Of a stretch of 51,142 nucleotides of DNA, positions 3,436 through 43,650 are shown one piece after another. The first letter of the stretch is position 1. Every line of letters begins with the position of its first letter. A program made the translations under genes and the position numbers. This DNA is from Gemmatimonadota bacterium (GTDB lineage Bacteria; Gemmatimonadota; Gemmatimonadetes; Gemmatimonadales; Gemmatimonadaceae), in NCBI GenBank assembly GCA_947462095.1, contig CANHNQ010000011.1, forward strand, positions 1-51,142, in the 5' to 3' direction. The notes under the pieces are model-generated. The model saw only the letters and a program-made list of their open reading frames with translations. It ran no database searches and was not told the origin of the DNA.

Positions 3436-4488
3436 ATGTCATGGCGCGTGATGCGCCGCGTCACCGGGGTGACCGCCGTCTTGCTGGCCGTGGTGCTCGG
3501 GATTACCCCCACCGGGTGCTACATCTCCCGCGCCGCCTACGAGGAGGCGCGGATCCTGTCGCGGCGCCAACCCATCACACGGCTGGTCGCCGATTCAGCC
3601 ACCGATCCGGCATTGCGGGCCAAGCTCCGGCTGGTGCAGGAGGCGCGTCGGTTCGCCATCGACTCGCTGGCGCTCACCGCCCGCAAGAGTTTCACCGCCT
3701 ATTCCCAGCTCGACCGCGACACGTTGGTGCTGGTCGTCACCGCCGCCTATCGCGACCGGCTCGCGCGGAAAACCTGGTGGTTTCCCGTGGTGGGCAGCTT
3801 CCCCTATAAGGGGTTTTTCGACTTTCCCGGCGCGTTGCGCACCGCCGAAACACTGCGCAGCGACGGCTTTGACGTGACCGTCGGGCCGTCATCGGCGTTC
3901 AGTACCCTCGGTTGGTTCAATGATCCGCTGGTCAGCACCACCGTGAAGGCAGATTCGGTTACCCTCGTCAATACGATCCTGCACGAGCTGCTGCACAACA
4001 CCTTCTTCGCCAAGGGCGCGGTGTCGTTCAACGAGTCCTTCGCCACGTTCGTCGGCGGCCGTGGCGCGGAGCACTTTTTTCGCGCCCGCGGCGACTCGGC
4101 GTTGTTGCGTCGGGCGGAAGACGAGTGGTACGACGACCGGTTGCTGGGGGCGTTCTGGGAGCGCACGTCGAACGACGTCGAGCAGGTCTTCGCCGCGCTC
4201 CCCGACTCCGCCAGCACCGAGCGCATCGCGGCGCGCGATCGCGTGTACGCGCGCGCCCGCACGCGCCTGGTGGACAGCATCGGACCGCTGCTCCGTACCT
4301 ATCCCGTTGGATGGGCGCAGAAGGTGAAACTCAACAACGCCGTCCTGCTCTCGCGACGCGTGTACGCCGAACGCCTCGACCGCTTCGACTCGGTATATGT
4401 GGCCGAAGGACGCGATCTGAAGCGCGCGATCGTGCGCATCATCGCCCTTCAGGAAGCAGCACAAACCGCGCGCGATTCGCGTCGGTGA
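3436..4488 (+). CDS. Putative zinc aminopeptidase, lipoprotein (PF10023-like)
   Basis: About 350 residues. The N-terminus has a basic run, a hydrophobic stretch and a Cys in ITPTGC, so a secreted lipoprotein is likely, although Pro at -3 is not a classical lipobox. The central motif LHELLHNTFF (HELLH at about 183-187) is a gluzincin-like HExxH zinc site, followed by FNESFATFVGGRGAEHF, where a downstream Glu could be the third ligand. This pattern fits the predicted aminopeptidase family PF10023/COG4324, recalled rather than searched. ATG codons at 3421, 3436 and 3451 are all in frame; the middle one is an arbitrary compromise and none has a good ribosome-binding site. It is divergent from dnaE. 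Its last 50 nt overlap the 3' end of the convergent M16 protease gene. Confidence 0.75.
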   Translation: MSWRVMRRVTGVTAVLLAVVLGITPTGCYISRAAYEEARILSRRQPITRLVADSATDPALRAKLRLVQEARRFAIDSLALTARKSFTAYSQLDRDTLVLVVTAAYRDRLARKTWWFPVVGSFPYKGFFDFPGALRTAETLRSDGFDVTVGPSSAFSTLGWFNDPLVSTTVKADSVTLVNTILHELLHNTFFAKGAVSFNESFATFVGGRGAEHFFRARGDSALLRRAEDEWYDDRLLGAFWERTSNDVEQVFAALPDSASTERIAARDRVYARARTRLVDSIGPLLRTYPVGWAQKVKLNNAVLLSRRVYAERLDRFDSVYVAEGRDLKRAIVRIIALQEAAQTARDSRR

Positions 4489-7276
4489 GGTACCGCTTCG
4501 CCGCCGCCGCCAGCGTCTCGGCGGTGAGTCCGGCGATCATCGGCTCTTCAGTGCCGATGGTGCCAAGCGCATCACCGTTCTCGAGACGGTTACGGATCGT
4601 GCTCAGCCAGTAGCCGTTTTGCTTGCGGGCCACTTCCAGCTCGCGACGCTGCTGTTCGCGTACCCGCTCCACTTCGGCGGCACTCGGCGGCACCCGACGC
4701 AGCGAATCGAGCTCCTGCTGCACGGCGGCGAACATCGACTCCGCCTGCTCCGGTGCCGAGCCGTAGCCGATCACGAGCTGCCACTCCTGCCGCGGCGTAC
4801 GCGAGAACTGCGCGCTCACCGACACCGAGTACGTGCCCCCCAACGCTTCGCGGAGACGGTCCAGCAGGCGCATCTCGAGCACTTCGCCGACCGACGCGAG
4901 CAGATACGCCTCGTCGCGGCTCCACGGGGCCGCCCCGGCAATGAGAATCGCCGTCTGGCTCTGCGGGGCAATCCCCTTGCGCACCGTCTTGTCGATCTGC
5001 CCCGTGAACAGCCTGGGGCCGACGTCCTTGAACGTTTCCTTGCGGCCGGCCGCCGGCAGTGGGGCGAGCCACTGCTCCACCAACGGCTTCAACACCGCGA
5101 GATCCACGTTGCCCACGAACAGGAACGTGAAGTCCCCCAGATCGGCGAAGCGATCGCGATAGATCGCCAGCATCTCGTCGAGGTTGAGCTCCTGCAGCAT
5201 CTCGACCGAGAGCGGGCGCACCCGCGGATGACCGCCGGCCAGCGTCATCTGCACCGTATCGCTGAACACCGCAGCCGGATTGGCATCCTTGTTCTTGAGC
5301 ACCTGATCGAACTGCTGCAGCAGCGCCTTGAACGCCGAGGTATCGGCCCGCGGTGCGGTGAGGCGCAGCCACGTGAGCTGCAGCATCGTCTCGAGATCCT
5401 TCGGGGACGCCCGCCCGCTGACCCCTTCACTGAGATCGGAAATCACCGCCGAGGCCGTGGCCACCTTGCCGGTGAGCTTCTTGTTCAAGTCGATGATCGA
5501 ATAGTCGCCCACGCCGCCGCGCTCGATCACGGTGGTCGCCAGCGAGGTCTTGAATACGTCTTTGTCGGCCACGAGACTGGCGCCACCGGGGCTCCACCCC
5601 GACATGACGATCTGATCGGCGGTGAAGTCGGTGGGCTTCACGAACACCGTGATCCCGTTTGAGAGCGTCCACTGCGTGAGGTTGAGCGATTCGGTGTTCT
5701 GCTCACTGACCACACGACCGGCCGTCGGCGCCTTGGCGACCAGCGCCCCCGCCGTGACCGTTTCCACCCACGGCGTGATCGGGGCGGCGTTCACCGTGCC
5801 GAACAGCGCGCGGATCTCGGCCTCGGTGGGCACCGTCAGCCCGTCTTTCTCGGGGAGGCTCACGGTCACCACCCGATTCGCCTCGCCCACGCGGGAGGCG
5901 CCGAGCGCATTCACGTCCGCAGTGGTGATCGTGGGCAGCAGGCGCTGTATGGCGGCATACTCGAAGGCGATGCCGGGAATCGCCTCGCCCTGTAGGAAAT
6001 GGTCGATGTACTCATCGACGAAGACATCCGACGGCGTCTTGTCGCGCTCCTGATAGGCGCGTTCGTAGCCGCGGAGCGTATTGATCTTCGCGCGCTCGAG
6101 TTCCGTGACCAGAAACCCATGTCGACGCACGCGCTCGGCCTCCGTGAGCAGTGCCTGCAACGATTCCAGCAGCCGACCCTCCTTGGCCCGCGCATCGAGC
6201 GAGTAGTACTCGCTGTTGCGCACAAAACTGCCGCCGCCGGCACCGGCACCGACAAACGGCGCCTCGGGCTTCAGCGCGAGCTCACTGAACCGCTGGTTCA
6301 GCATCTGGTCGTACAGGCGCTCCATCAGATCCTGCCGCAGGTCGCCCACCGTGCGGGTGGTGCGCCCCGTGCTCTTCCACAACACGCCCACCGACGAGCC
6401 GCTGAGTTCCTTGTCGGTGGCGATGGAGATCAGGGTGGAATCGTGGGTGGGCACGGCGGCCACGGTGCGGGCGCGGGCTCCCGTCCGCGGGGCGATCCCG
6501 CCGAAGGTCGAGCGTATCAGCGCCTCGAGCTGCGTCGGGTCGGCATCACCGACCGCCATCACGGCCATGAGATCCGGACGGTACCAGTCACGCCAGAACC
6601 GCTTGAGGGGCGCCGGGTTGGCCTGTTCGAGAATTGCCGGCTGGCCGATCGGCAGTCGGTCGGCGTAGCGCGAGCCGCGGAAGATCACGGGGAATTGCTG
6701 GTCGCGGATCCGCTCACCGGCACCCAATCCGTTCCGCCATTCCGACAACACCACGCCACGTTCGGCGACCACCTCGGTGGAGTCGAACAGAATGCCGGTG
6801 GCCACGTCCCCGAGAAACCGGAAGCTCTTCTCAAGAATCCCCGCGCTGTCGGTCGGGACCGGGAGGATGTAGACGGTTTCGTCGAAGCTCGTGAATGCGT
6901 TCAGGTCGGCGCCGAAGCGCACGCCGATCGATTCGAGGTACTTCACGATGTCGTTCTTGGCGAATGACGTCGTGCCGTTGAACGCCATGTGCTCGATGAA
7001 GTGCGCGAGGCCGCGCTGATCCTCGTCTTCCAGTATGGAGCCGGCGTTCACGACCAGTCGCAGCTCGGCGCGCTGTTCCGGCTTCGCGTTGCGACGGATG
7101 TAGTAGCGAATGCCGTTCGGCAGGGTGCCGATCCGCACGGCGGCATCCACCGGCAACGCCGCCTGCAGGGCAAACGAATCGCGCGGCGCCGTGGAGGCGG
7201 CGCGTTGGGCCCCGGCCATCGGGGCGGATATGACCGCGACCACCGCGGCGAGCGACAGATTACGGAAGAAACTCAC
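4439..7276 (-). CDS. M16 family zinc metalloprotease (PqqL-like), secreted
   Basis: 945 residues starting at GTG (7274-7276), with a GAGGA ribosome-binding site 4 nt upstream. The longer open frame upstream to 7654 overlaps the helicase gene and is not needed. Residues 1-23 form a Sec signal peptide ending APMAGA-Q. The inverted zinc motif HFIEH (HxxEH) is at 92-96, and the downstream zinc-ligand Glu is probably in ERGVVLSEWR. Length and the second half (QLVIGY, RRELEVARKQNGYW, YLTDANRARFVLLPEGR) match two fused M16 units as in PqqL and the pitrilysin-like peptidases, which act in the periplasm. The start is 32 nt downstream of the helicase stop, so the two may be cotranscribed. The 3' end overlaps the aminopeptidase gene tail to tail by 50 nt. 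Confidence 0.92.
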   Translation of the reverse strand: MSFFRNLSLAAVVAVISAPMAGAQRAASTAPRDSFALQAALPVDAAVRIGTLPNGIRYYIRRNAKPEQRAELRLVVNAGSILEDEDQRGLAHFIEHMAFNGTTSFAKNDIVKYLESIGVRFGADLNAFTSFDETVYILPVPTDSAGILEKSFRFLGDVATGILFDSTEVVAERGVVLSEWRNGLGAGERIRDQQFPVIFRGSRYADRLPIGQPAILEQANPAPLKRFWRDWYRPDLMAVMAVGDADPTQLEALIRSTFGGIAPRTGARARTVAAVPTHDSTLISIATDKELSGSSVGVLWKSTGRTTRTVGDLRQDLMERLYDQMLNQRFSELALKPEAPFVGAGAGGGSFVRNSEYYSLDARAKEGRLLESLQALLTEAERVRRHGFLVTELERAKINTLRGYERAYQERDKTPSDVFVDEYIDHFLQGEAIPGIAFEYAAIQRLLPTITTADVNALGASRVGEANRVVTVSLPEKDGLTVPTEAEIRALFGTVNAAPITPWVETVTAGALVAKAPTAGRVVSEQNTESLNLTQWTLSNGITVFVKPTDFTADQIVMSGWSPGGASLVADKDVFKTSLATTVIERGGVGDYSIIDLNKKLTGKVATASAVISDLSEGVSGRASPKDLETMLQLTWLRLTAPRADTSAFKALLQQFDQVLKNKDANPAAVFSDTVQMTLAGGHPRVRPLSVEMLQELNLDEMLAIYRDRFADLGDFTFLFVGNVDLAVLKPLVEQWLAPLPAAGRKETFKDVGPRLFTGQIDKTVRKGIAPQSQTAILIAGAAPWSRDEAYLLASVGEVLEMRLLDRLREALGGTYSVSVSAQFSRTPRQEWQLVIGYGSAPEQAESMFAAVQQELDSLRRVPPSAAEVERVREQQRRELEVARKQNGYWLSTIRNRLENGDALGTIGTEEPMIAGLTAETLAAAAKRYLTDANRARFVLLPEGR

Positions 7277-38715: not shown

Positions 38716-39591
38716 CTATCGGCGCCAGAGCCAGTGCTCGTTCGCGATCGCAGCGTGATGGGCCGCCGTCCGCCGCGCAAAGTCCGGCGACGCGACGAAG
38801 GGCTCGACCGTGCGTGCCGGATCCGGCCCGGTGTCCGTCTCCAGTGTGGCGGCGAGGGCGTCCACGACGTTCGTCCAGTGTGCCTGGGACGGCACACACG
38901 CCGCCAGCGAGGCGGCGGGAGGCGGTGCCGGCAACGGCACGTCGGCCGCGTGCGCCAGCAGTCCCTGATCATCCGCCAGCAGAATGCTGCCGTGCTGCAG
39001 GTAGGCGCCGCCATGCCGCCACACCGCGCTGCCCACGAGCTTCCGGCCGCTCACCATGATCTCGCCGGCCGCCGGGTGCTCGAAGCACACCGGCCCCTCG
39101 GGGGCGATGGCTGGCGCCTCGCGGTCGCTGACCAGCTGTGCCGGCACCCCCAGCGACTGCAGGGCGCGCAGCAGGACGTGGTTGACGGCGGCGTAGGCGA
39201 CCCGCCAGGAGAGCCGTTCGTCGAGCGGAAAGGCCACGCTGTAGGTGACCTCGCGGGTGTGGAGCAGCGCCCGGCCCCCGGTGGGGCGCCGCACGGCGCG
39301 CAGCCCGGCGGTGCGCAGCCCCGCGGCGGAGAAGCGGCCCGAGGTCCGTTCGTTCCGCCCGAAGGACACGGTTGGCGCGTCCCACGCATAGCATCGCCAG
39401 ACGGCACGGTCGTCGGCGCCCGCCAGTTCCAGCAGCGCGGCGTCGATCGCCATGTTGGTGACGCCGTCCGCCGCTGGTGAGCGAAGGAACGCCCACCGAG
39501 CGGGCAGGGTGCCCGGCGCGGTGCCGCGCGTGGCTGGTCCGGACTGTGGCGTCGTCTCGCGGATGGCGGGGGCGATTGGGGAAGAGCTCAC
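38716..39591 (-). CDS. Lipoate-protein ligase A / LipM-like protein
   Basis: 291 residues from GTG at 39589-39591. BPL/LplA/LipB superfamily member: [11 protein letters not shown] (101-111), [32 protein letters not shown] with the conserved Lys184, and Cys169 in GPVCFEHP, the position of the acyl-transfer Cys in LipM-type octanoyltransferases. So it is either a lipoate ligase or a LipM-like octanoyltransferase. There is a non-conserved N-terminal stretch of about 30 residues. It diverges from gcvP (95 nt between starts), so it may lipoylate or octanoylate GcvH. A TAAATT hexamer 8 nt upstream and no ribosome-binding site suggest a leaderless message. Confidence 0.87.
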
Positions 39592-39599
39592 GGAGGTTA

Positions 39600-39605
39600 A
39601 ATTTA
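39600..39605 (-). promoter_or_regulatory. Candidate -10 element of the LplA/LipM-like gene
   Basis: Reads TAAATT on the minus strand and ends 8 nt before the GTG start. No Shine-Dalgarno lies between; the pyrimidine CCTCC there is the anti-sense of one. Confidence 0.35.
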
Positions 39606-39686
39606 CGGCGTCACGGGCGAAACGCGCCCCGGTGGCCCCAACGATTTCACGACGCTTGCACGGGCTTGGCCCGTTTGAGGATGGTC

Positions 39687-42578
39687 ATGGGTACGCGCAC
39701 CATCTCGTCCGCGCCGGTCGCGGTCGATTCGTTCATTCCGCGCCACATCGGTCCGAGTGCAGCCGATCAGCAGGCGATGCTCGCCGCACTCGGCTACGAC
39801 TCCCTCGAGGCGTTCATCGACGCGGTCGTACCGGAAAGCATCCGCTTCCGCGGCACCCTGAACACGGGGCCCGAGCGCAGTGAGGCGGAGGTGCTCGGCT
39901 CGCTCCGGGCGATCGCCGCGCACAATGCCGTGTACCGCTCGTTCATCGGCATGGGCTACTACGGCACGCACACGCCGAACGTGATTCTCCGCAACGTGAT
40001 GGAGAACCCGGCCTGGTACACGGCGTACACGCCGTATCAGGCCGAGATCGCGCAGGGACGACTCGAAGCGCTGCTCAATTATCAGACGATGGTGATCGAT
40101 CTGACGGGACTCGAGATCGCCAACGCCTCGCTGCTCGACGAAGGCACGGCCGCCGCGGAAGCGATGGCGCTGTGCTTCGGCTCGCGCGGCAGTGCCACGC
40201 GCAACGTGTTCTTGATCGGCAGCGACTGCCATCCGCAAACGATCGCGGTGGTCGAGGCGCGCGCGTCGGCCCGTGGCATCGTGGTGCAGGTGGGTGATCC
40301 GCGGGCGTTCACGTTCAACGACACGGTGTTCGGCGCGCTGCTCCAGTATCCGGGCACCGACGGCGCCGTGGTCGACTATCGCGGACTGTGCGAGGCGGCG
40401 CATGCAGCGGGCGCACTGGTCACGGTGGCGAGCGACCTGCTCGCCCTGTGCCTGCTGACCCCGCCGGGGGAGTGGGGCGCCGATATCGTCGTGGGCAACA
40501 CGCAGCGGTTCGGCGTGCCGATGGGCTACGGTGGGCCGCACGCGGCCTTTTTCGCGACGCGCGACGAATTCAAGCGCCTGTTACCGGGGCGTATCATCGG
40601 TCTCTCGCGTGACACCGAGGGCAAGCCGGCGCTGCGCATGGCACTCCAGACGCGCGAGCAGCACATTCGCCGTGAGAAAGCCACCAGCAACGTGTGCACG
40701 GCGCAGGTGCTGCTGTCGGTGATGGCGGGCATGTACGCCGTGTATCACGGGCCGGATGGTCTGGTGCAGATTGCCGAGCGCGTGCATCGGCATGCCGCGA
40801 CGCTGGCGGCCGGCTTCGAACGGCTCGGCTTCGCGATCACGCACGAGCACTTCTTCGACACCGTGCGTGTCGAAGTCGGCGCGCATGGACAGGAAGACAT
40901 TCTCGCGGCTGCGTCGGCGCACCGCATGAACCTGCGCGTGCTCGAGCCGGGCACGCTCACGGTGGCGCTGGACGAGACGACGACGGCACAGGATGTCGCC
41001 GATCTGTGGGCGGTGTTCAACAACAACGTCGCGGTCGACTTTTCGTACGCCGATGTCACCGCCGGCGTGGATACGCGCTACGACGAGCGCTTCCGCCGCG
41101 TGACGCCGTTCCTGACGCATCCCACGTTCCATCGCTACCACAGCGAAACGGAGATGCTGCGCTACATGTACGCGCTGCAGGCGCGCGATTTCTCGCTCGT
41201 GCATGGCATGATTCCGCTGGGCTCGTGCACGATGAAGCTGAACGCGACGGCCGAGATGATCCCGGTCACGTGGCCCGAGTTCGGTCAGCTGCATCCGTTC
41301 GCCCCCACCGCGCAGGCGCAGGGGTATGCGCAGATGTTCGCGGAGCTGGAGCGCGATCTGGCCGAGGTGACCGGCTTTGCGGGCGTGTCGTTGCAGCCGA
41401 ATGCCGGCTCGCAGGGCGAGTACGCCGGCCTGCTCGTGATCCGCGCGTACCATCTCGCGCGCGGCGACGCGCATCGCACGGTGTGTCTCATTCCGCAGTC
41501 GGCGCACGGCACGAATCCGGCGAGCGCCGTGATGGCCGGTTTCTCGGTGATCGTCGTGAAGACGGACACTGACGGCAACATCGACGTGGACGATCTGCGC
41601 GCGAAGGCGGAGCAGCACGCCGCCAATCTCGGCGCGCTGATGGTGACCTATCCGAGCACGCACGGCGTGTTCGAAGCGCGCATCAAGGAGATCACGGCGC
41701 TCATCCATGAGCATGGTGGTCAGGTGTACATGGACGGCGCCAACATGAACGCGATGGTCGGTGTGTCGCGTCCGGGCGATCTTGGCGCCGACGTGTGCCA
41801 CCTGAACCTGCACAAGACGTTCTGCATCCCGCATGGTGGTGGCGGCCCGGGGATGGGCCCGATCGGTGTGGCGTCGCAGCTCGTGCCGTTCCTCCCCACG
41901 CACCCGGTGATTGCCACCGGCGGTACGCAGGCGATCGGTCCGATCTCGGCCGCCCCGTGGGGGAGCGCGAGCATCCTGCCGATCTCGTACGTGTACATCA
42001 AGCTGATGGGCGGCGAAGGACTCGCCACGGCCACGAAGGTGGCGATCCTGAATGCGAACTACGTGGCCAAGCAGCTCGAGGCGCACTACCCGGTGCTCTA
42101 CCGTGGCCAGAATGGACTGGTGGCGCACGAGTGCATCCTGGACACGCGCGGCGTGAAGAACGCGTCGGGCGTGGAAGCGGAAGACATCGCGAAGCGTCTG
42201 ATGGACTATGGCTTCCACGCACCGACGTTGTCGTTCCCGGTGGCCGGCACGCTGATGGTGGAGCCCACGGAGAGCGAATCGAAGGCGGAGCTCGACCGGT
42301 TCATCGAAGCGATGATCGGCATCCGCGAAGAGATCGCGGCCGTCGAGCGGGGGGAAGCGGATCGCGACAACAATGTGCTGAAGCGCGCGCCGCACACGGC
42401 CGCGCATGTCACGAGCGACGAGTGGGATCGCCCGTACACGCGTCAGCAGGCGGCGTATCCGACCTCGTTCACGCGCGAGCGGAAGTTCTGGCCGTATGTG
42501 GGGCGCGTCGAGAGCGCGTTCGGGGATCGCAACCTGGTGTGCGCGTGTCCGCCCATCGAGTCGTACGCGACGACGTGA
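39687..42578 (+). CDS. gcvP: Glycine dehydrogenase (decarboxylating), fused P-protein
   Basis: 963 residues from the ATG at 39687, chosen over the ATG at 39681 because GAGG at 39677-39680 then sits 6 nt upstream. PLP enzyme of the glycine cleavage system; passes the aminomethyl group to lipoyl-GcvH. Seen: [91 protein letters not shown] and the PLP-lysine segment [18 protein letters not shown] (Lys710). Both halves are in one chain, as in bacterial GcvP of about 950 residues. No gcvT is present in the window, and no glycine riboswitch precedes it. Confidence 0.97.
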
Positions 42579-42598: not shown

Positions 42599-42640
42599 AG
42601 AACGGCGTGGCTGCTTCGGTGGTCACGCCGTTCTGGCTTT
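42599..42640 (+). terminator. Intrinsic terminator of gcvP
   Basis: Perfect 11-bp stem AGAACGGCGTG / CACGCCGTTCT with a 14-nt loop, followed by GGCTTT. It lies 20 nt after the gcvP stop codon. Confidence 0.7.
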
Positions 42641-42661: not shown

Positions 42662-42706
42662 CGGTGGGCGTTGGTGTACGTATAGCCGCGGCTCCGGGCG
42701 CGGGTC

Positions 42707-42785
42707 ATCCCCTTCGCGGCCTTGCTGTGGCGGCGGACTTGGGAGCGCCGCGCGGCGCTCGTGCGCCCGCCACAGAGGGCCGCTC
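42707..42785 (+). repeat. REP-like structured repeat, left copy
   Basis: 79 bp. Ends GGCCTTGCTGTGGCGG and CCGCCACAGAGGGCC pair as a nearly perfect stem, with the inner palindrome GCGCCGCGCGGCGC as a second stem. The same 79-bp element recurs in inverted orientation at 43077-43155. The two copies match at 69 of 79 positions by eye, and all 10 differences lie in the interior. Confidence 0.8.
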
Positions 42786-43076
42786 GTGGGGCGCCCGGCC
42801 CGGCAGCCGCTCGCGTCGGCGTAGGGGCCGGGGCCGAGTTCCCTGCGCCGCACACCGAACGTCGTGATTCCGAAAAGTCCGCGACGGGATTCCATCCCCC
42901 GGTGTGACGTCGTCGCGTGGCGGATGGGGAGTGGCACGCGCGCACCGTGGGCGAGTGGGGGCTCATCGCGGGCTGGGGTGTGGGACGTGGCCAGCCCCGC
43001 GGGATTGCTCATCCTTCGTGAACGGTGCTGGTGCCGAGCTGCTTCCCCCAAGCCCCGCGAGGGGCGTGGGTCCGCT
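42786..43076. other. Non-coding spacer between the two REP-like copies
   Basis: GC-rich, with open frames on several strands but no recognisable gene, start signal or protein motif. Contains a short GCCCC/GGGGC hairpin near 43050-43070. I see nothing else. Confidence 0.55.
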
Positions 43077-43155
43077 GAGCGGCCCTCTGTGGCGGGCGCG
43101 CCGATGCCGCGCGGCGTTCCGACATTCGCCGCCACAGCAAGGCCGCGAAGGGGAT
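43077..43155 (-). repeat. REP-like structured repeat, right (inverted) copy
   Basis: Reverse-orientation copy of the 42707-42785 element, same length, with identical ends (28 bp on one side and 25 bp on the other) and divergence only in the interior. It lies in the gcvH-side half of the 685-bp gap. Confidence 0.8.
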
Positions 43156-43206
43156 CCCTCGCTCCGACCAAGGCGGTCGCACACGACCCAACGTCCGAAC
43201 GCAGAA

Positions 43207-43233
43207 AGGCCCCGAGCACAGAGCCCGGGGCCT
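43207..43233 (-). terminator. Intrinsic terminator of gcvH
   Basis: 8-bp stem AGGCCCCG / CGGGGCCT. In the minus direction it is followed by TTTCTGCG. It lies about 30 nt beyond the gcvH stop. Confidence 0.6.
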
Positions 43234-43263: not shown

Positions 43264-43650
43264 CTACTCGCCCACCACGCCCTTGTACTCGGCCGCCGAG
43301 AGCAGACCAGCGTCACCGCCAGCCGCGACGCGCACCTTGATCATCCAGCCGTCGCCGTACGGATCCGTGTTGATCAGCGCCGGCTCGCCGTCGAGGCGCC
43401 CGTTGATCTCGACCACTTCGCCGGCCACCGGCATGTACAGCTCCGAGACGGCCTTCACCGCTTCGACGGTGCCGAACACGTCATGGGACCCGTACGTCGC
43501 GCCGACCTTGGGCAGCTCGACGTACACGATGTCACCCAACTCGCCCTGCGCGAAATCCGTGATCCCGATGGCGACGATCGCGGCGTTGTCGGTGGCGCGG
43601 ATGTACTCGTGGTCCTTGGTGTAGCGCAGATCGGCGGGAATGTTCGACAC
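43264..43650 (-). CDS. gcvH: Glycine cleavage system H protein
   Basis: 128 residues from GTG at 43648-43650, with a TTTGGAG ribosome-binding site just upstream. Lipoylated carrier between GcvP, GcvT and LpdA. Lipoyl-lysine is Lys66 in the ...EAVKAVSELYMPVAGEVVEINGRL segment. N-terminal YTKDHEYIR and C-terminal INTDPYGDGWMIKV are typical. It follows coaE by 28 nt on the same strand, so it is probably cotranscribed with it rather than with gcvP, which faces it from the other side of the repeat-bearing gap. Confidence 0.96.
   Translation of the reverse strand: MSNIPADLRYTKDHEYIRATDNAAIVAIGITDFAQGELGDIVYVELPKVGATYGSHDVFGTVEAVKAVSELYMPVAGEVVEINGRLDGEPALINTDPYGDGWMIKVRVAAGGDAGLLSAAEYKGVVGE

Follow-up and report, generated by a model that had tools for sequence, protein, structure and literature searches.

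A diverged pair of inverted hairpins between gcvP and gcvH and a Gemmatimonas family of putative non-autonomous mobile elements

Small palindromic repeats are usually found through sequence similarity. In the DNA studied here, an inverted pair of hairpins separates gcvP (+) from gcvH (-), two convergent genes, and it raises the question of what such a pair is when similarity returns nothing but the pair itself: a local duplication, an RNA element of the two genes, or a diverged copy of something that moves.

An inverted hairpin pair between gcvP and gcvH

A preliminary description of the whole 51-kb stretch of DNA analysed (hereafter the window) had reported two 79-bp copies in opposite orientation, 291 bp apart, with 10 interior differences and identical ends. 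Recomputation gave the same copies, spacer and number of mismatches, all of which fall at positions 30-56 of the 79 bp; the ends are indeed identical, but over 29 bp and 23 bp, not 28 and 25 bp. With its flanks included, the repeat extends over 105 bp at 80% identity, weaker but continuous. Inverted pairs were sought by a seed-and-extend script, as BLAST self-comparison missed pairs in palindromic DNA. At a score of at least 24 and a spacing of 60-900, this pair is the only one in the window, and its score of 35 compares with a best of 17 or less across 20 Markov-shuffled windows. The pair is real, and chance is ruled out as its source.

Each copy folds on itself, as had been described, copy 1 alone at -57.7 kcal/mol (z -4.4) and copy 2 alone at -48.7 kcal/mol (z -2.3), around a stem GCGGCCTT(G)CTGTGGCGG / CCGCCACAGAGGGCCGC with a single bulged G. 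The preliminary description had also seen compensatory-style conservation of the stems in these two arms, which did not hold up: almost no compensatory change was found within them (1/19 pairs). In Rfam, the focal hairpins had no match to any described RNA family at E <=1. The features of the locus are collected in Table 1. Gene calls were made with a simple codon score, and the true start of gcvP is probably downstream of the first GTG of its open reading frame. Both hairpins lie inside the interval bounded by the terminator-like stems of the two genes.

Table 1. Features of the gcvP/gcvH locus, in window coordinates.
Feature	Position	Strand	Remarks
gcvP (glycine dehydrogenase) ORF	39477..42578	+	adjoins gcvH in the genus
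Terminator-like stem of gcvP, outside the element	42600..42634	+	read from sequence; conserved in relatives
Left terminal motif	42670..42690	+	GTTGGTGTACGTATAGCCGCG, degenerate form of the family end GGTGTGYGCGA(C)..GCCCGGC
Left hairpin core	42707..42785	+	CM-aligned extent 42696-42802; TTGCT side outward; sense to gcvP
Spacer between CM-aligned hairpins	42803..43059	.	kept in close relatives; shortened in G019
Right hairpin core	43077..43155	-	CM-aligned extent 43060-43166; TTGCT side outward; sense to gcvH
Right terminal motif, inverted	43170..43190	-	CGTGTGCGACCGCC on the - strand
Terminator-like stem of gcvH, outside the element	43207..43233	-	read from sequence; conserved in relatives
gcvH (glycine cleavage H protein)	43264..43650	-	ORF

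By blastn, the focal sequence has no copy besides these two in the genome to which the window belongs (G000; 215 contigs, 82% complete), and its matches in relatives fall at the gcvP/gcvH locus only. There, either the complete pair or, where a contig ends within it, one side alone was found in G023 (two contigs), in the one-contig genome G041, and in G019, G045, G014 and G016, the contig of the last being without the gcvH-side copy. The two genes are convergent in every genome of the genus where both were seen. Taken alone, a sequence matched at a single locus and conserved there in relatives would suggest a local duplication. The nearest pair-less genome by gcvH/gcvP identity, G011, has 88 bp of a different spacer between the genes, and no clean empty site could be aligned among the relatives. 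In G019, the same change from CCTTGCT to CTTTTCT is present in both arms, which suggests homogenisation between them.

Several contigs of relatives (L062, L064, L081, L083; G016, G014, G045, G024) terminate at or next to the gcvP/gcvH hairpins, which may therefore break sequencing or assembly, so that copy numbers from draft genomes are to be read as lower bounds. Different hairpin pairs stand between gcvP and gcvH in G017 and G021. G021 has 12 copies (L114, L151-L162) of another hairpin family, which has the same layout but no relationship in sequence; most of these copies form inverted pairs, 200-360 nt apart, that keep the same +/- order, and one such pair stands between gcvP and gcvH.

A wider hairpin family in Gemmatimonas

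A hairpin of G017, CCCCCTTCGCGCG TTGCTTC GGGG ... CCCC TCAGAG ACGCGCGGCGGGGG, recurs in many copies in G042, G017, G006 and G015, often in inverted pairs. A covariance model built from 18 hairpins of this type (R1) matched in 17 of the 30 genomes of the genus, the elements being absent from many species. The complete genome G042 gave 26 matches, or about 22 distinct hairpins once opposite-strand echoes were removed, which is the maximum in any one genome. G000 itself holds two further members, at C22:17644-17756, adjoining a topA/trmFO-like gene pair (named by eye from sequence), and at C29:23517-23619. Folded arms measure about 100-150 nt in the family and 79-107 nt in the window.

The genus that bears the family is Gemmatimonas, according to record titles: an exact-pattern scan of contigs matched only records labelled Gemmatimonas, Gemmatimonadaceae, Gemmatimonadetes/Gemmatimonadota, or bacterium without a taxon name, and a family search of 201 genomes from 69 genera sampled in the taxonomic order gave no match outside this genus. 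Among open-licence papers we found no description of palindromic repeats in Gemmatimonas; the family is apparently previously undescribed for this lineage, in line with the initial suggestion of an element class new to it.

In an alignment of 48 family hairpins, 93.7% of cells were paired, and both sides had changed in 21 of the 32 pairs, amounting to 178 cells. Such cells numbered 29-49 in slid structures and 44.7 in shuffled ones. The alignment was fitted to the R1 structure, which favours covariation, but the effect is so large, and so far above these controls, that the fitting is unlikely to be its cause. The outermost stem is locus-specific yet complementary, both sides having changed in all six pairs of helix 1 (6/6). 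Selection on structure, which had been proposed from the focal arms, thus finds its support in the family.

Do the focal arms belong to it? A covariance model of 48 family hairpins with no focal arm included (R2) scored 29.5 bits (E 3.5e-4) on arm 2 of the window, 19.0 bits on arm 1 and 26.5-34.7 bits on eight ortholog arms, all on the TTGCT (sense) strand, the best non-focal place in the window reaching 14.8 bits. The unrelated hairpins of G021 served as a negative control, and their loci reached up to 23.1 bits, so that the membership of arm 1, at 19.0 bits, depends on its identity with arm 2. When the focal arms were aligned directly with family members, sense exceeded antisense in 30/30 comparisons, and all but two of the 30 topped the shuffle maximum. 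The arms share motifs with the C22 and C29 members, at other loci of G000, and the pair fits the family layout, with the TTGCT side outward and a position 3' of a gene on either side. On these comparisons, the focal pair appears to be a diverged family member, arm 1 being the weak point of the assignment.

The preliminary description had expected many copies, inverted pairing and covariation if the pair was of REP type, and had taken two lone copies without covariation as the mark of a local duplication. By blastn, G000 has just the two focal copies of the sequence, which therefore does not count as multicopy there; covariance models do recover multiple copies, inverted pairing and covariation, in diverged relatives only. 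The picture of a local duplication is thus what blastn alone returns, and it is overturned by the covariance models. What stands of the original proposal is a REP/BIME-like pair; covariation in the focal arms and a multicopy sequence by blastn do not.

Layout, placement and movement of the unit

When flanks were compared, many hairpins proved to carry the terminal motif GGTGTGYGCGA(C/G)(A)C(G)CCCGGC on their outer side and a motif GCCGGGCTG(C/G) on their inner side. The ends of the unit, which is short and non-coding, are degenerate GGTGTGYGC on both sides, that is, terminal inverted repeats. At L136/L203, the terminal motif in the outer flank of the left hairpin is in tandem (TTGGGTGTGGG, about four times); simple repeats, for example GGTCGGGGTCGGGG, also flank many copies.

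Where opposite-strand hairpins are neighbours within 900 nt, the TTGCT side points outward in 24/24 cases; three further neighbouring hairpins within that distance are in tandem. G042 has clusters of four and three hairpins (L208 4211-5818 and L210 4442-6061), tandem beyond the first pair, lying behind an ilvD-like gene and around a redoxin gene. With an outer gene within 100 nt, 39 of 45 hairpins face its 3' end, and single hairpins are sense and just 3' of a gene in 26 of the 34 that have an outer neighbour within 400 nt. Pairs stand in codirectional (15) or convergent (7) contexts, plus one divergent copy (L203); a divergent context was thus seen for 1/23 pairs vs 17/47 control intergenic regions (p=0.004), with the limit that close species share loci, which are counted more than once, so that counts are not fully independent and p-values are optimistic.

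Three copies in G042 (a, b and c, near 26.7, 40.5 and 54.6 kb) resemble one another over the stretch that runs from GGTGTGGGC to GTCGCGCGCAC and differ beyond it, their homology being confined between the terminal motifs; no target-site duplication was seen at any of the three. A parS-like GTTTCACGTGAAAC site stands on either side of copy c, and the orthologous interval in G017, G009, G005, G015 and G013, short in the last, has no family hairpin. The neighbourhood of copy b has a counterpart without a hairpin in G001. Both b and c, one of which occupies a divergent region, have the look of recent insertions. Conversely, G006 is without both gcvP/gcvH hairpins of its relative G017, and the alignment reads directly as separate deletions between short direct repeats. 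Moves and losses alike are what we infer from comparing genomes.

The parS-like sites of G042 (L202, around 4210-4901) lie upstream of a ParA-like gene, and the type of repeat that separates them differs in almost every species inspected: a hairpin pair, tandem repeats, or GGGGAGAA-type repeats. No transposase or autonomous partner was found among the scanned genes between or beside hairpins; cargo between them was restricted to redoxin, a PEP-CTERM protein and ordinary enzymes.

Alternative readings and known systems

Our reading of the focal pair, with a probability of roughly 0.74, is that a copy of a Gemmatimonas-specific non-autonomous mobile element, BIME/REPIN- or MITE-like, has become fixed at this locus and is slowly decaying. 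Its unit would consist of a terminal motif GGTGTGYGCGA.., a long hairpin, a spacer of ~55-700 nt, the hairpin inverted, and a terminal motif. Comparison between genomes points to a unit present at new sites and bounded by the terminal motifs, to pairing that is kept while sequence changes, to the same facing of both hairpins in every pair, and to non-coding sites, mostly after stop codons. Hairpins that are conserved in shape and variable in sequence, with conserved loops, point to recognition of a folded single strand: a trans-acting nuclease or transposase would recognise them as single-stranded DNA, by shape and by the conserved internal loops TT(C)/GGC and TTGCT/CAGAG. A transposase-like nuclease reading folded single-stranded DNA would account for the structure of the unit, its fixed orientation and its moves, and insertions would survive best away from promoters. 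At gcvP/gcvH, entry of the unit would predate the split of the focal clade, the two arms having since been partly homogenised, and other copies would be in the course of loss, hairpin by hairpin, through short-repeat deletions.

More tentatively, these hairpins might define an element class recognised mainly by the shape of two long single strands, in which sequence drifts and pairing is kept, with a mover that is not a RAYT, and which settles sense just behind genes, where it may be an RNA 3'-end element for each convergent gene. We consider it unlikely that such a role is the entire explanation, i.e. that the hairpins are 3'-end RNA or transcription elements (an RNA stabiliser, a backup or bidirectional terminator, or an insulator) whose structure and orientation are kept by selection, not transposition. 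The sense position just 3' of genes, including that of most singles (26/34), the fact that each of two convergent genes, gcvP and gcvH among them, has a hairpin of its own, and the covariation of the family would all agree with it. However, at codirectional sites (15/22 pairs) the second hairpin lies ahead of the next gene in antisense orientation, which argues against RNA function as the sole cause; moreover, the elements are missing from many Gemmatimonas species, copies b and c look recently inserted, one of them in a divergent region, and the focal hairpins lie beyond the terminator-like stems and have no T-run. Since the outer hairpin is usually sense to the preceding gene, an RNA role could add to mobility, and the two may coexist, as suggested for REPs.

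That the pair arose as a local inverted duplication at gcvP/gcvH, unrelated to any family and with its structure a by-product of GC-rich palindromes, is very improbable: the blastn matches at the focal locus only, in its own genome and in relatives, and the near lack of covariation in the focal arms would fit, but an independent covariance model matches the arms in the right orientation, motifs are held in common with the C22 and C29 members of G000, and both the orientation rule and the 3'-gene rule hold.

As for a RAYT as mover, Y1_Tnp genes (PF01797, RAYT) are present in single copy in 8 of the 30 genomes (L163-L170), and no match was found in G042, which is complete and has the most copies, in G000 or in G041. 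The flanks of the eight RAYT loci carry other repeats, of GGGGTCAGAGTC / AGCTCTGACCCC type, and no constant GTAG was seen beside the stem in the family flanks compared, in agreement with the earlier statement that the pair is not linked to a RAYT. High copy number nevertheless goes with RAYT presence (5/8 vs 1/22, p=0.002, without phylogenetic correction), and an indirect link may be possible. A true REP/REPIN moved by a RAYT tyrosine transposase is the least probable reading: inverted pairing and that enrichment would favour it, but no RAYT gene was found in the genome with the most copies, the RAYT genes of other genomes are flanked by GGGGTCAGAGTC-type repeats, no GTAG tag was seen in the hairpin flanks compared, and the arms are 3-5 times REP length.

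A non-autonomous mobile element, the reading we prefer, would mean that a family can diverge until blastn shows two lone copies, and that covariance still exposes it as a genus-wide mobile family. Gemmatimonas would gain a defined mobile element, in which it becomes testable what moves palindromic repeats without a RAYT, and whether the hairpins that follow genes serve as functional RNA ends or sit at landing sites that are tolerated.

REPs measure 20-40 bp, carry GTAG or CGTC tags and form inverted dimers downstream of genes (PMC3733652), and REPINs, which are inverted REP doublets, are proposed to move through RAYTs (PMC3116915). As in REPINs and BIMEs, an inverted palindrome pair with its spacer would be the mobile unit and singles its remnants (PMC3116915, PMC3733652), and sites are intergenic, mostly unidirectional or convergent and near gene 3' ends; spacers of up to ~700 nt are a difference. 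Unlike REPs, the Gemmatimonas family has arms of ~80-150 nt with conserved internal loops, at most ~22 hairpins per genome where REPs often exceed 100, and neither a constant tag nor a linked RAYT. CGTC REPs, palindromic and often dimeric, are likewise without a known dedicated transposase (PMC3733652), but they are short, and no constant CGTC tag was seen at the Gemmatimonas stem end. We class the family as a variant of the BIME/REPIN-MITE kind that departs from REPs in size, in tag, in copy number and in its lack of a linked RAYT; of the REP/BIME likeness first put forward, the inverted doublet as unit is retained and those four features are not.

Among longer elements, ERIC, RUP, RPE and NEMIS are non-autonomous, intergenic long stem-loops of ~100-200 bp (PMC2229807), a description that the Gemmatimonas hairpins share; these are, however, single elements, most with terminal inverted repeats and a TA/TSD signature, whereas the Gemmatimonas unit has two hairpins and no target-site duplication was seen. 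The same lack sets it apart from MITEs, which it resembles in being short and non-coding with terminal inverted repeats (degenerate GGTGTGYGC). The Caulobacter intergenic repeats (CIR) have two long stem arms, a linker and exposed GANTC sites (PMC2229807). Of the family matches checked, only 24/84 contain GANTC, too irregular a presence for CIR-like methylation sites; it is in the two long stem arms joined by a linker that the Gemmatimonas unit resembles CIR.
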